Shown piece after piece: positions 4,663 through 25,300 of a DNA stretch of 37,519 nt. Both the position numbers and the translations under genes were made by a program. Where the stretch lies: contig JACIZP010000174.1 in NCBI GenBank assembly GCA_014359355.1, positions 1 through 37,519 on the forward strand. The letters run 5' to 3'. Below the pieces are notes generated by a model. That model did not search any database, had not been told where the DNA came from, and saw only the letters and a list, made by a program, of their open reading frames with translations. The DNA is from Calditrichota bacterium (GTDB taxonomy: Bacteria > Zhuqueibacterota > Zhuqueibacteria > JANLFK01 > Oleimicrobiaceae). How positions within the stretch are numbered: position 1 is the first letter of the stretch; each line of letters starts with the position of its first letter.

Positions 4663-5304
4663 ATGGCGTCGAAGCAGGGTGCTGGGATCGTGGTCGGCCT
4701 CACCGGCGGAATTGGCAGCGGCAAGTCTGCAGTTGCGCGCCTGCTCTCGCGCTACGGCCTGCCCATTATCGACGCCGACGCGGTGGGGCACGAGGTCACC
4801 TCCTCGGACCCTACGGTGCAGGCGGCCCTCAGGGATGCCTTTGGGGAGCAAATCTTCGCTCCCGGTGGGGGGCTGCGCAGGGAGCAGTTGGCGGCCATCG
4901 TCTTCGCGGATCCGCAGGCCCGGCAGCGGCTGAACGCCATCGTGCATCCACCCATGCGCCAGCGCATTGACGCACAGGTTGCTGCCTGTCTTGCGGAGGG
5001 ACACCCCATCGTCGTGGTGGACGCAGCGCTGCTTGGCGAGGCAGACTTGGTGAGCCACATGGACTATCTTGTGGTGGTTTACGCGCCGCTCAAAGAACGC
5101 GTGGAGCGCATTCGCCGGCGCAACGGCCTGGGCGAGGAAGAGGTGCGCGCGCGCATAGCCGCGCAGATGCCGTTGGAGGAGAAAGTGCGACTGGCCGATT
5201 ACGTCGTCGAAAACACCGGCTCGCTCTTTGCCCTGCGCGCACAGGTCCGCGCCCTCTATTCCTGGCTGCAGGCCCGCCTACGGGAAAGGGGTCGTAACGT
5301 CTGA
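4663..5304 (+). CDS. coaE: Dephospho-CoA kinase
   Basis: Catalyses the last step of coenzyme A synthesis, ATP-dependent phosphorylation of the ribose 3'-OH of dephospho-CoA, in the cytosol. The 213-residue length is normal. The P-loop GGIGSGKS is at residues 15-22, followed by the substrate-binding DADAVGHE (about residues 37-44), the conserved IVHPPM motif and the lid-region sequence RIRRRNG. The family-typical C-terminal YVVENTGS is present. The ATG at 4663 is preceded by GGTGGAG at 4649-4655, a well-spaced ribosome binding site overlapping the stop of the protease gene, so the two are likely translated from one message although functionally unrelated. Confidence 0.96.
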   Translation: MASKQGAGIVVGLTGGIGSGKSAVARLLSRYGLPIIDADAVGHEVTSSDPTVQAALRDAFGEQIFAPGGGLRREQLAAIVFADPQARQRLNAIVHPPMRQRIDAQVAACLAEGHPIVVVDAALLGEADLVSHMDYLVVVYAPLKERVERIRRRNGLGEEEVRARIAAQMPLEEKVRLADYVVENTGSLFALRAQVRALYSWLQARLRERGRNV

Positions 5305-19446: not shown

Positions 19447-19953
19447 GTGATCGAACGGTTAAGAGTGCTCCGCTACGCCGCGCTCGTTCTGCTGGCCGAT
19501 CAATTGACCAAAGTGCTGGCGCGCTATCTGCTGCCGCGCGACCACTCAGTACAAGTGGTGGGCGACTTGGTGCGCCTGACCTACGTGGAAAACCCAGGCA
19601 TTGCCTTCGGCATCAGGGTGGGCCATGGACCGGTTTTCACCGTGCTGATCGCCGTGGCGAGCATCGCCGTGCTTGTCTACCTACTGCGCGCTCACGCGGT
19701 GAGCAACACCGAACGGGTCGCCTTGGCCATCACCTTTGGCGGGGCACTTGGCAACCTCACCGACAGAGTTCTCTTCGGCCGGGTTGTGGACTTTGTCGAT
19801 GTGGATTTTCCGGATTTTCTGATGACCCGCTGGCCGGTCTTCAACCTCGCAGACGCCGCCGTCACCATTGGGGTCGTTATCCTCATCCTGATGATCTTGC
19901 TTGCCTCCGAGCATGGTGGCCACCGGCAGGCGAGCGAGCCACCCTCAACCTGA
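19447..19953 (+). CDS. lspA: Lipoprotein signal peptidase (signal peptidase II)
   Basis: Cleaves the signal peptide of prolipoproteins before the lipidated Cys in the inner membrane. The 168 residues have four transmembrane segments and the catalytic aspartates Asp115 (in GRVVDFVD) and Asp136 (in FNLADAAVTIG). ADQLTK (17-22) and ENPGIAFG (48-55) are also conserved. The start is GTG at 19447, shortly after the dksA-like stop. At least three lipoproteins encoded in this window are likely substrates. rluD follows 19 bases later, a very common lspA-rluD pairing. Confidence 0.96.
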   Translation: MIERLRVLRYAALVLLADQLTKVLARYLLPRDHSVQVVGDLVRLTYVENPGIAFGIRVGHGPVFTVLIAVASIAVLVYLLRAHAVSNTERVALAITFGGALGNLTDRVLFGRVVDFVDVDFPDFLMTRWPVFNLADAAVTIGVVILILMILLASEHGGHRQASEPPST

Positions 19954-19972
19954 GCTTGTCCGCAAGTGGCAC

Positions 19973-20947
19973 ATGCCGCGCGAACATCACACTCTCGTGG
20001 TCCCGCAGGCGGATGAGCGCCGACGCTTAGACAACTTTCTTCGCCAGCATCTGCCCCACCTGACGCGCTCGCGCATTCAACGTCTGATCGATGACGGGCA
20101 GGTGCTTCTCAACGGCGCGCCCACCAAGCCTGGCCACCGCGTCCGGCCGGGTCAGGTGGTGGAGGTGACCGTCCCCGAACCCAAGAAGTTAGAGATCCTC
20201 CCCGAGCAAATCCCTTTAGACATCCTTTACGAGGACGAACATCTCCTGGTGCTGAACAAGCCGGCAGGCATGGTGGTCCACCCCGCCTTCGCCAACTATA
20301 CGGGAACTTTGGTCAACGCCCTGTTGGCGCACTGCCAACAGCTTTCCGGGATTGGTGGCGTGCAGCGGCCAGGCATCGTCCACCGCCTGGACAGGGAGAC
20401 ATCGGGGGTCATGGTGGTAGCCAAGAGCGACGCGGCGCATGTGGCGCTGTCGCAGCAGTTTGCCGCACGCCAGGTGCGACGAGAGTACCGGGCAGTTGTC
20501 TGGGGACATTTCCGCTCGCCGACCGGCCGCGTGGAGACATTGCTAAGGCGCAGCCCCAAGAACCGCCTACGGATGACCGTCTCCAAACTCGGCAAGCTTG
20601 CCGTCACCAACTATGAGGTGCTGGAGGAATATCGCCTCCTCAGTCTGCTGCGCCTCAACCTGGGGACCGGCAGAACGCACCAGATTCGCGTGCACATGGC
20701 CTATATCGGCCATCCAGTCTTCGGCGATGCTACCTATGGCGGCAGAAGTAAGCGCTTGAGCGGCTTGAACCGCGAAAACCTCGCTTTCGCAGTGAAGCTC
20801 CTGAAGCAGTTCAACCGGCCCGCCCTCCACGCTCTCAGCCTTGGCTTCGTGCATCCGGTCCTGCGCCAGGAGATGTACTTTGAGGTCCCGCCCCCCGATG
20901 ACTTTCAGCGCCTGCTTGCCGCGCTGAAAGAAGTCCCGACCAAATAG
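19973..20947 (+). CDS. rluD: Large-subunit rRNA pseudouridine synthase, RluD family
   Basis: Converts uridines to pseudouridine in 23S rRNA (in E. coli, positions 1911, 1915 and 1917 of helix 69). An S4 RNA-binding domain covers about residues 18-66 (RLDNFLRQHLPHLTRSRIQ), followed by the catalytic domain with HRLDRETSG at 137-145 and catalytic Asp140, and the later GRTHQIRVHMA motif. Length 324 is normal. ATG 19973 is the only start compatible with the family N-terminus; longer in-frame forms would overlap lspA. The ribosome binding site is weak (AAGTGG), suggesting coupling to lspA translation. It converges with the minus-strand selenoprotein gene 17 bases away. Confidence 0.95.
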   Translation: MPREHHTLVVPQADERRRLDNFLRQHLPHLTRSRIQRLIDDGQVLLNGAPTKPGHRVRPGQVVEVTVPEPKKLEILPEQIPLDILYEDEHLLVLNKPAGMVVHPAFANYTGTLVNALLAHCQQLSGIGGVQRPGIVHRLDRETSGVMVVAKSDAAHVALSQQFAARQVRREYRAVVWGHFRSPTGRVETLLRRSPKNRLRMTVSKLGKLAVTNYEVLEEYRLLSLLRLNLGTGRTHQIRVHMAYIGHPVFGDATYGGRSKRLSGLNRENLAFAVKLLKQFNRPALHALSLGFVHPVLRQEMYFEVPPPDDFQRLLAALKEVPTK

Positions 20948-20964: not shown

Positions 20965-21192
20965 CTACTGCATCGCGGTCCGAAGCAGGCGCACCACCTC
21001 GCCTTGCTCAGGAAAGCGACCGAGTTGCCTTTTTGAGAAAACCAGCTGGCCGTCCACTTCCACCTCGAACACGCCTCCGGTGGACTGGACGAGCTCTGCC
21101 TCTATGCCAAAATGCTGTGCTATTTCCTCCGCCAAACTGACGGCGCGCGCCCTGAAGCCTCACGTGGTGCAGTAGGTGATGCGAACGGTCAC
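20965..21192 (-). CDS. SelW-like selenoprotein of the SelT/SelW/SelH (Rdx) family, UGA-encoded selenocysteine
   Basis: Read on the minus strand from GTG at 21192, the frame gives 75 residues if the TGA at 21160-21162 is read as selenocysteine. It starts MTVRITYCTTUGF, so Cys8 and Sec11 form the CxxU redox motif exactly where the Rdx family has CxxU or CxxC in a thioredoxin-like fold. The rest also matches: an alpha-helical ARAVSLAEEI, then STGGVFEVEVDG and LVFSKRQLGRFPE, and a C-terminal helix EVVRLLR. The reading frame is open on both sides of the TGA and ends at TAG (20965-20967). GGAG sits 7 bases before the GTG. The start overlaps the preceding gene's stop as GTGA. Family members are small thiol-redox proteins, possibly tied to glutathione or oxidative stress; the precise role is unknown. 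Standard gene calling would miss it. Confidence 0.88.
21126..21157 (-). promoter_or_regulatory. Candidate bacterial SECIS hairpin downstream of the UGA
   Basis: On the mRNA, counting from U of the UGA (21162), CUUC (6-9) can pair with GAGG (34-37) and CGCC (18-21) with GGCG (30-33), leaving an 8-nt loop GUCAGUUU. The loop begins 21 bases from the U, in the range reported for bacterial selenocysteine insertion hairpins. The inner stem is short, and a competing pairing within GGCGCGCGCC exists, so the fold is only plausible. Confidence 0.35.
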
Positions 21193-22319
21193 GGTTCTTC
21201 TCCGCAAGTTGTGGCGTTCTTGTCTTCTCCTGCAGGTCTCCTCTCCTGCTCCAGCAACAGATTGGCTGCCTCCTCCAGGTCATTGGCGACAAAGTCGGCA
21301 GTGACAGCGTACTCGCCGTCACGGCCGCCTGTGCCGGTGCGTACCAGAATGCTCCTGCATCCCGCGCGGCGAGCAGTCTCGATGTCGGCTGTGCGGTCGC
21401 CGATCACCACGCTGTGGCTCAGGTCCACATTGAGCTGCTCCTTGGCCAGGTGGAGAAGAGCCGTGCCTGGCTTGCGACAATCGCACTGCTCGGCCAGGCC
21501 ATGAGGACAGAAGTAGACCTTGTCAACGCGCACCCCATGGGCATGGAGCAGCTTGAGCATGGCGCTGTTGACCCGGTAAAAGTCCTCAAGCGTGAAGTAC
21601 CCGAGGCCGATTCCCCCCTGATTGGTCAGCACCACAAGCCGATAGCCCATGTCCTGGAGGCGCTTCAGACCTGCGGCTGCCCCGGGGAGCAATCGCACCT
21701 TGTCGGGCTCGTGCAGAAAGGGCACATCCTCCAAGATGGTGCCGTCGCGGTCGACGAACGCGGCTGGCGCCTGCTTCGGAGGCGGCCGGCGGATATACAC
21801 GGCGCCTTCTCGTTCCACTGGCGCAGCCTGAGGCGCATTTGCTGCAGCCGCCCGCGCAATGATTTCCGTGCTCGACAGAGGGGTGGCCACCGGGATCAGG
21901 AGCACCCGCCCCCCGTAGCGTTCCACCACCTCGCTGGAGGTCAATTCCGTTGGCCGATAATCGCCTGCCTTGATGTACAGGTCCGGCCGCAAGAGCTCGA
22001 TGTTCACCTTGTTGCGTCGTTCCGAGAAGATGAAGACCAGATCCACGCATTCCAGTGCAGCCACCACCTCCGCCCGCTGTTCGGCGGGGATAATGGGCCG
22101 CTGGGGCCCTTTGTATGCCCGCACGGACGCGTCGGAGTTCACCCCCACCACGAGCAGGTCGCAGGCCTGGCGCGCCTTTTCCAGGTAGTCCACATGGCCG
22201 GCGTGGAGGAGGTCGAAGGCCCCAGAGGTGAAGCCAACCCTCTTGCCTTCCGCGCGTGCGCGTGCGCACAGAGCGGCAACTTCCTCCCGGGGCTTGATCT
22301 TTTCACTGCGCGGACGCAT
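21189..22319 (-). CDS. Fused heptose nucleotidyltransferase (HldE C-domain-like) and GmhB-like HAD phosphatase
   Basis: A 376-residue two-domain protein. Residues about 8-160 form an RfaE2/HldE-type cytidylyltransferase fold with TSGAFDLLHAGH (HxGH at 39-42), GVNSDASVRAYKGPQRP and KAGDY, which normally transfers AMP to heptose 1-phosphate. Residues about 185-345 are a HAD phosphatase of the GmhB group: nucleophile Asp190 and Asp192 in DRDGT, LTNQGGI, zinc ligands Cys271, His273, Cys279 and Cys281, and VIGDRTADI with Asp308. GmhB removes the 7-phosphate of heptose 1,7-bisphosphate, the step just before nucleotidyl transfer, so the fusion joins successive steps of ADP-heptose synthesis for LPS core. 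No HldA-type kinase domain is present. ATG 22319, 17 bases after the mannosidase stop, is chosen because longer in-frame starts overlap that gene. The stop overlaps the selenoprotein start. Confidence 0.88.
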   Translation of the reverse strand: MRPRSEKIKPREEVAALCARARAEGKRVGFTSGAFDLLHAGHVDYLEKARQACDLLVVGVNSDASVRAYKGPQRPIIPAEQRAEVVAALECVDLVFIFSERRNKVNIELLRPDLYIKAGDYRPTELTSSEVVERYGGRVLLIPVATPLSSTEIIARAAAANAPQAAPVEREGAVYIRRPPPKQAPAAFVDRDGTILEDVPFLHEPDKVRLLPGAAAGLKRLQDMGYRLVVLTNQGGIGLGYFTLEDFYRVNSAMLKLLHAHGVRVDKVYFCPHGLAEQCDCRKPGTALLHLAKEQLNVDLSHSVVIGDRTADIETARRAGCRSILVRTGTGGRDGEYAVTADFVANDLEEAANLLLEQERRPAGEDKNATTCGEEP

Positions 22320-22335
22320 GGGGCTCTCGGGCGCG

Positions 22336-25300
22336 CTACTTCCTGCTCCCCACCTGACTTGCAAATCGCACCAAGAGGGTCTTGATCTCGAAGGGAGCAA
22401 GCTTGGTGCTTACCGTGCGATCCGCAGCAGGCACCGCGGCGCCGATTTCCTCCAGAAGGTTCGTCTCAAATGCCTCGGCTACCCTCTCTTGGAATCGGAC
22501 CTGCACCGGAGTTTCCCTGCCGAAGACCTCAAAGAGGCGGACAACGGTCCCCTGACCCCTCTCCGCTCGCTTGACTGCGGAAAGGATCACACCCCCACCG
22601 GCGTCGAGGTGTGCGAAAGAACCCTCTTTGCCAAGCCGGCCTGCGTGAGGCTGTGTGAGCACGACATGCAGAGGGTAGTTCAGCTCGTAGGCGCGTCGGT
22701 GTGTCTCCGCCTCCTGCCAACTCCCAGCATGAGGGAGAAGGCTATAGCTGAATTCGTGCTCACCCATGTCCGCGTTGGGGTCGGGGTTCTTCGGAGAGCG
22801 GAGCAAAGTGATGCGCATGACGTTCCCGCGGATGTCGTGACCATACTTGCAGTCGTTGAGTAGACTCACCCCATAGAGCCCCGATTCGTCCGTCAGGTCG
22901 ACCCACTTTTGCGCGGGGACCTCGAACATCGCCTTTTCAGCAGACGTGACCGGCACGGTGGTGCGCTGGATCCAGCCGTAAGGGATCTCATACGTGGCAA
23001 CACGGCCCTGAACAGCCACCGGGAAAGCGGCCTTGGCGAGCACGTGCGCCTCATGCCAATCCGCCCGCGTAGTAATATCGATGCGCGGCAGGCGGCGGTA
23101 GAGGCTGATGTCTTGCACAAAGCGCGAGCCTCTGAACGGACGAACCACGCGCAGCGTGGCCCGCAGCGGGCCCTGGGAAATGACCTCAAGCTCCACAGGC
23201 CGGTCCGCGCGCCACTCCTTGCCCGTGTAGCCGATGTTCCATGCATCGTACTCCGAGGGCAGATCTTCGAAGAACTGGAGCTGGTTGCCAGGCCCGGCCA
23301 GCACCTCGCGGCCGCTTGTTCGGTCAACTACTGAGGCGATGTTGCCGGTCTCTGCATCGAGCTTCACTTCCCAGGCTCGATTCTGCAGAACCCAGGGGAG
23401 CGTCTGAGGGGCATCTGCCCAGGCGCGTCGGACTGCCGGCCGCAGCCAGAAGACCTTGTAGCCCAGAGCCGGCACGCCGCTGACTTCGAACAGCAGCCCA
23501 TCCATGTGGGGTTGTGTGGCATGGAGCACGCCCTTAGCATCCACCACTTCCCAGCTTTGCTCCAAGAGCTGTCCGGGTAGTCTCACCCAGGCCACGTCAT
23601 TTCTCTCCCATGACAGCGGGTTGAAAACCACCAGGGGGATGCCCTTTCCGCGCGTGTCGATTTCGGCGCCGAGGGCCTGCAGCGCCCTCTCCAGCGCCGC
23701 ACCGGCAAGGGCCTGGCAGGAGTCGTAGAGCGCGTGCGCATCTTTGTAAACCTCAGGAATGCTTGACCCTGGCAGGATGTCGTGGAACTGATTGAACAGC
23801 GTGCCCTGCCACGCTTGGCGCAGCTCCTGCTCCGGGTAGGGAATCGGGGCAAAGGAGGCGAACTTTTCTGCCGTCTCCAAGAGCACCTCCATCTGCCGAT
23901 TTCTCTTTTTGATGGCGCCCTGGGTGGTGTAGGTGCCACGGTGCGTCTGGAGGTAGAGTTCGCTGCGCACGATGGGCAGGTCCGGCTTGGTCTCCGCCGC
24001 GCCGAAGAACGCTTCCGCAGAGGACTTGATCACCGTGGGATAGAGGCGCGTGTCGGCCATGTGGTCGAAGCGGGCGAGCATCTCTTTGGTGGGGCCGCCG
24101 CCGTGGTCGCCGACGCCATAGAGAACGAGCGCGTGGTTCACGCCCGTAGCCTGACGAAAGTCGAGGAGGGTGCGCAGGGTCCGCACCTCCTCCAACTCCT
24201 CGACGTAGCTGAGCGGCACCACTGTCAGGATGCGCGAGCCATCCGGTGACTCCCACCAGAAGAGTTGATGCTCAGGCGGAGTCGTGTCGTTCCACCACAG
24301 CTTGCTGGTGACGAAGTAGTCGATGCCGCTCTTCTTGTAGATTTGCGGCAAGGTCCACGCATAGCCGAAAGTGTCGGGTGTCCAGCCGACCCGCGGATCC
24401 ACTCCCAACTTCTCTCGCAGATACTGTTTGCCAAGGAGGATCTGCCGCACGAGCGCCTCACCTGCAGGGAGGTTGCAGTCGGGTTCCACCCACATTCCGC
24501 CGACCACCAGCCATTGCCCCCGCCGCACCATCTCTTTGATGCCGGCGAGTATTTGCGGGTGAAACCGTTCCATCCACTGGTACGCCTGGGCCTGGCTCTG
24601 CGCATAGGTGAAGGTCGAGTCGGTCCTCATGAACTCCAGGGCCTGGCGGAAGGTCTGTTCGCAGACCTGCACCGTCTCCTGCCACCGCCACAGCCAGGCC
24701 ATGTCGATGTGCGCGTTGCCGACGACGTGGATGGTGTCTTGCTTCATCGCCTGCCGCAGCGGCTCCGATTTCTCCATAAAGTCCTGCACCGCTGCCCGCC
24801 AACCGCCGGCATCGGCAGCTTGGAATGCGTCCACCAGACGCCTCCACAACTCGGCCTGGCCAAAGTCGGTCCCCGGAGCGTACAGCTCGCCGAAACGCAG
24901 GTCGTCGAGCAAAGCAGCGTAGTCCAGGGCAGTGAAATCGATGAAAACGCGCGGGGCTTGCTTGGCCTGGGCCAGGTCGATGGCAAGGCGCACCTCCTTG
25001 GCCGAGTCAAGTCTGGGAAGGGCGAATCGGGCCTCTGGCGGTCGCACCTGCGCCTGCCACAGCCCTTGCCGACGCGGGAAAGAAACCAGAGCCTGGTCAT
25101 CGCAGCGAGCCGTCACCGCCTCCTGCGGGGCTGCCACCCTCAGGCAGAGGTCGTGGACAGCCAGCTCCTTCGGCAACCGCAGCCGTGCCTTGCCGTGCGT
25201 GCCGGACGGGGCTTGCGCGAACGAAAACAGCTCGGTGACTTCCACCCCTGCGAGCACAGGGGAAAGTGCATCTTGGCCAGTGAGCGAGAGCTCGCTCCTG

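Follow-up and report, generated by a model that had tools for sequence, protein, structure and literature searches.

The selW-like gene and its surroundings

The window analyzed here, the whole stretch of 37,519 nucleotides, carries on its minus strand a small frame of the Rdx (SelW-like) family, lodged between a gene for a nucleotidyltransferase/phosphatase fusion and a convergent gene for an RluD-type pseudouridine synthase. The space between these two neighbors, the latter of which ends at 20947, would otherwise appear as a gap of about 240 bases. The features of the locus are:

21189..22400, minus strand: open reading frame for a fusion of a nucleotidyltransferase (HldE-C like) and a HAD phosphatase (GmhB like), with Pfam CTP_transf_like and HAD hydrolase domains
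20965..21192, minus strand: selW-like gene (Rdx family), 75 residues in read-through translation, with a GTG start, an in-frame UGA at codon 11 and a TAG stop
21169..21171, minus strand: codon of Cys8, the putative resolving cysteine of CxxU; TGC or TGT in 79/79 loci and invariant in the family alignment
21160..21162, minus strand: UGA codon predicted to be read as selenocysteine (Sec), the U of CxxU (C8-T-T-U11); TGA in 79/79 related loci
21129..21143, minus strand: SECIS-type hairpin CCGUC-AGUUU-GGCGG, recognized by its fit to published constraints and by synonymous covariation
19901..20947, plus strand: open reading frame for the RluD-type pseudouridine synthase, convergent and downstream of the selW-like gene, with Pfam PseudoU_synth_2 and S4 domains

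Read through from 21192 down to 20965, the minus strand yields VTVRITYCTTUGFRARAVSLAEEIAQHFGIEAELVQSTGGVFEVEVDGQLVFSKRQLGRFPEQGEVVRLLRTAMQ followed by the stop. The only TGA in this frame lies at codon 11 (21162..21160) and no other damage is apparent. The TGA stop of the fusion gene (21191..21189) overlaps the GTG start of the selW-like gene in the form GTGA, and another genome from the genus (G001) presents the same gene order, with ATG at the position of the selW-like start. The fusion gene itself joins an HldE-C-type cytidylyltransferase-like domain and a GmhB-type HAD phosphatase in one reading frame (21189-22400, minus strand) and probably covers two steps of ADP-heptose-type synthesis; its true start is likely to be an internal ATG near 22323, given that the homolog in G001 begins with ATG.

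Family membership is supported by a match to Pfam PF10262 (Rdx) with E = 2.5e-22 and 79.3 bits, well above the cut-off of 22.6, which spans positions 1-73 of the 74 in the profile. The NCBIfam model NF041051 is matched at 93.8 bits (cut-off 88) and TIGR02174 also scores above its own cut-off, while the column aligned with the UGA is Cys/Sec in the family HMM. These results bear out the earlier note, which had read the minus-strand frame as broken by one TGA only and closed by TAG, had placed that TGA at the redox Sec/Cys site of the Rdx family (as both the PF10262 and the NF041051 columns do) and had seen family resemblance on both flanks. Its description of the gene as overlooked holds for gene callers that treat TGA as a stop, but not for the family, the members of which are well known as selenoproteins and for which an NCBIfam model exists.

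Conservation of the UGA and selection on the frame

Related loci were collected with six query stretches as seeds, one of them covering the UGA, a design that does not exclude Cys forms. Among 147 related genomes searched, 53 gave a match, nearly all with an internal TGA, and in one of the genomes (G129) a weak match had no stop at all. From public genome contigs, 49 loci were obtained, with Gemmatimonadetes, Planctomycetes, Acidobacteria, Proteobacteria, Actinomycetota, Calditrichota and others among their sources. When the related loci were aligned codon by codon, position 11 was TGA in all 79, spread over many phyla, and a Cys codon in none of these 79, in a seeded search that favored close relatives of this SelW-like subtype. 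Very few Cys forms of SelW-like proteins have been reported in Sec-using bacteria (PMC1794560). The in-frame UGA is hence conserved at the redox position and aligned with the Sec or Cys of homologs, as is demanded of a bacterial selenoprotein.

Comparison of the 75 codons with G001 reveals 20 synonymous and nine nonsynonymous changes (dN/dS 0.113), distributed 8/3/18 over first, second and third codon positions, with dN/dS values of 0.16 before and 0.104 after the UGA. In either of the two alternative frames of the strand, these changes give values above 2. For the neighboring genes, the upstream gene presents a similar dN/dS (0.107) and rluD a dN/dS of 0.049. Between these two species of the genus, purifying selection thus acts on both sides of the UGA, and the low dN/dS after the UGA, together with the values above 2 in the other frames, therefore argues that the part 3' of the UGA is translated.

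Sec insertion in bacteria competes with termination, so that part of the product would be expected to be truncated in any event. That the UGA serves as a genuine stop, leaving just a 10-residue leader peptide upstream of a relic similarity, is nevertheless highly improbable in view of the dN/dS of 0.10 in the codons that follow it and of a family match that extends over the whole length of the protein. Somewhat less probable again is a pseudogene, in which a recent mutation from TGC/TGT to TGA would have disrupted a Cys-type Rdx gene. The gene can indeed decay, as demonstrated in G002, another member of the genus, where a remnant is interrupted by a TAG and frameshifts, but a recent lesion is contradicted by a UGA at the same codon in 79/79 loci from many phyla, by purifying selection on both sides of it between the window and G001 (dN/dS 0.11) and by a frame that is free of other damage.

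The remnant in G002 occupies the same syntenic place (L106, G002:C4:65000-75000, about 4900-5130). It keeps the TGA and the flanking genes and has acquired a TAG, a second TGA and two compensating frameshifts, in a genome that still possesses selB and tRNA-Sec. The earlier note had held that a stop or frame break at this place in a close relative would count against the selenoprotein; such a break does exist in G002, but its remnant retains the TGA, and the UGA frame is intact in the 79 other loci. The comparison thus points to gene loss, that is, to the loss of a selenoprotein within one genus, rather than to evidence against the reading of the window, with an assembly error in G002 being also possible. 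Loss of SelW-like genes of this kind has been described (PMC1794560).

The SECIS-type hairpin and the Sec-decoding genes

Bacterial SECIS elements have been described as stems of 4-16 bp with an apical loop of 3-9 nt bearing a G in its first two positions, the loop lying 16-37 nt after the UGA and the minimum free energy (MFE) being at most -7.5 kcal/mol (PMC13188914). The hairpin of the window complies with these constraints for loop, stem and spacing: the distance from the UGA is 16 nt to its 5 bp stem and 21 nt to its apical loop, and the loop, AGUUU, has a G in second position (21137) followed by U. The energy is borderline, with -10.3 kcal/mol for the local fold, within the limit, and -6.8 to -7.4 kcal/mol for the isolated hairpin. 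Single-sequence MFE folds of the window (z +1.4) and of G001 were no better than those of shuffled sequences, and the base-pair probability of the hairpin in the window was only 0.46. Single-sequence folding was consequently rejected as proof of a SECIS, and a comparative test was used instead because such folding was unremarkable against shuffles.

In this test, the amino acids of each of the 79 loci were kept fixed and the codons were redrawn from the usage of that locus in 2000 shuffles. Pairing was observed in 364 of 395 stem cells, against 276 expected, and the full stem in 57 of the 79 loci, against 10 expected. The third-position pair 20-32 was standard in 74/79 loci (30 expected) and occurred as six types (CG, TA, AT, GC, TG and GT). 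Every locus had the loop G (56 expected). None of the 2000 shuffles reached any of the observed stem, pair or loop-G values, and the result also holds for 57 non-redundant loci. Moreover, all 35 loci with Ser at residue 19 encode it by AGY, and therefore the loop keeps its G. We regard this comparative signal as decisive for a predicted hairpin that the earlier note had proposed to look for by folding the mRNA after the UGA: a hairpin with covariation does follow the UGA, but single-sequence folding does not by itself prove it.

The genome to which the window belongs (395 contigs, 95.6% complete) contains the selW-like gene as its only Rdx match. SelA is present (571 bits), as is SelB with EF-Tu, beta-barrel and winged-helix domains, and two SelD proteins score over the cut-off. 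The first of these (L020 1413-2451, minus strand) has itself a UGA at its active site (AAGUAAK), with a GUG-loop hairpin 33 nt downstream. Genes resembling YedF/DUF3343 and cysteine desulfurases adjoin this Sec-type SelD in what looks like a selenium-metabolism cluster. The second SelD (L019 316-2532, plus strand) has Cys at its active site (GLGCACK) and lies behind a NifS-like class V aminotransferase in a fused protein of 738 aa.

A covariance search identified a tRNA-Sec gene with anticodon TCA, at 53 bits against a gathering score of 47, some 870 bases after selB (L002 4255-4338); contig C378 ends before the gene does, so that its 3' end is missing. Complete tRNA-Sec genes are found at the corresponding distance from selB in G001 (75 bits) and G002 (74 bits). 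ARAGORN reported no tRNA-Sec at the selB locus because the contig ends inside the gene and the program needs a whole tRNA. A first search of the whole genome for tRNA-Sec had returned mostly Ser, Leu and Tyr tRNAs below the cut-off, which were discarded. The genome thus harbors selA, selB, selC and selD, with selC lacking its last positions at the contig end, in keeping with the working Sec pathway that the earlier note had deduced from the gene and for which it had suggested searching these four genes. In turn, the selW-like gene indicates decoding of UGA as Sec in this lineage, and a Sec-type SelD is present as well.

These genes and the location of the UGA at the Sec/Cys position leave a reassignment of UGA to an ordinary amino acid (a Trp or Gly code) as practically negligible, since UGA is also the commonest stop in the window, closing 13 of the 24 main ORFs and among them the gene just upstream, and nothing was found in favor of reassignment beyond the one read-through UGA. 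We infer from the conserved UGA, the hairpin and the decoding genes that the locus is almost certainly a genuine selenoprotein gene, the UGA at codon 11 of which would be read as Sec.

The predicted product and its relation to known SelW-like proteins

According to this interpretation, the selW-like gene would be translated as the last cistron after the fusion gene, from the GTG that overlaps its stop. At codon 11, SelB with Sec-tRNA-Sec would bind the downstream hairpin, and Sec would be inserted instead of termination taking place. The product would be a small protein of thioredoxin-like fold in which Cys8 and Sec11 of the CxxU motif make up a selenenylsulfide redox center. Alignment-based structure prediction (pLDDT 96.4) places C8-T-T-U11 directly after strand 3-8, as in the thioredoxin-like fold of Rdx proteins, and the best PDB matches of the model are the SelW-related bacterial crystal structures 2fa8, 2obk and 3dex (TM about 0.9). 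The same predicted fold is shared with the Cys-type bacterial structures of this group (2fa8, 2obk, 2oka, 2p0g and 3dex) and with mouse SelW (2npb, TM 0.66), and the sequence profile also matches 2fa8 (Agrobacterium Atu0228) with E 2.6e-16. The C terminus of the protein is shorter than in most of these solved proteins, from which it also differs by its predicted Sec at the redox position. A CxxU redox center in a thioredoxin-like fold implies a thiol-dependent oxidoreductase, and for the product a SelW/Rdx-type thiol-dependent reductase is therefore the most likely activity. The function of bacterial SelW-like proteins has been called unclear, with an interaction with glutathione being noted (PMC1088965).

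SelW-like proteins outnumbered every other selenoprotein family in the Sargasso Sea survey (PMC1088965), have been described in Geobacter, Desulfotalea, Symbiobacterium, Epsilonproteobacteria and marine metagenomes (PMC1088965, PMC1794560, PMC4607533) and are encoded by genes reported to have been completely missed in genome annotations (PMC4607533). Both these bacterial selenoproteins and their omission from annotations have thus been known since 2005 (PMC1088965, PMC1794560, PMC4607533), and the present gene adds one member, leaving knowledge of the family itself unchanged. It does illustrate neatly how ordinary gene callers lose a selenoprotein gene to an apparent intergenic gap, and gene lists of the lineage are incomplete without it.

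With the SelW-like bacterial selenoproteins (PF10262; TIGR02174; NF041051 SelTWH_Campy) the protein shares its size and the CxxU, FEVxxDG and FSK / GRFP motifs, and the gene shares the UGA at the Sec site and a SECIS inside the coding sequence. Unlike the described members, it is an overlapping cistron behind an HldE-C/GmhB-like fusion. It is tempting to speculate that this overlap is functional and that the CxxUG subtype helps to regulate, by redox, how envelope sugars (ADP-heptose type) are synthesized in this lineage, but we deem such a role very unlikely. The active site reads CTTUGF here, as opposed to the usual CxxUNY of the SelW-like family, and active sites of the CTTUGF type are common to a few of the related loci, such as L056, L061, L060, L095 and L097.
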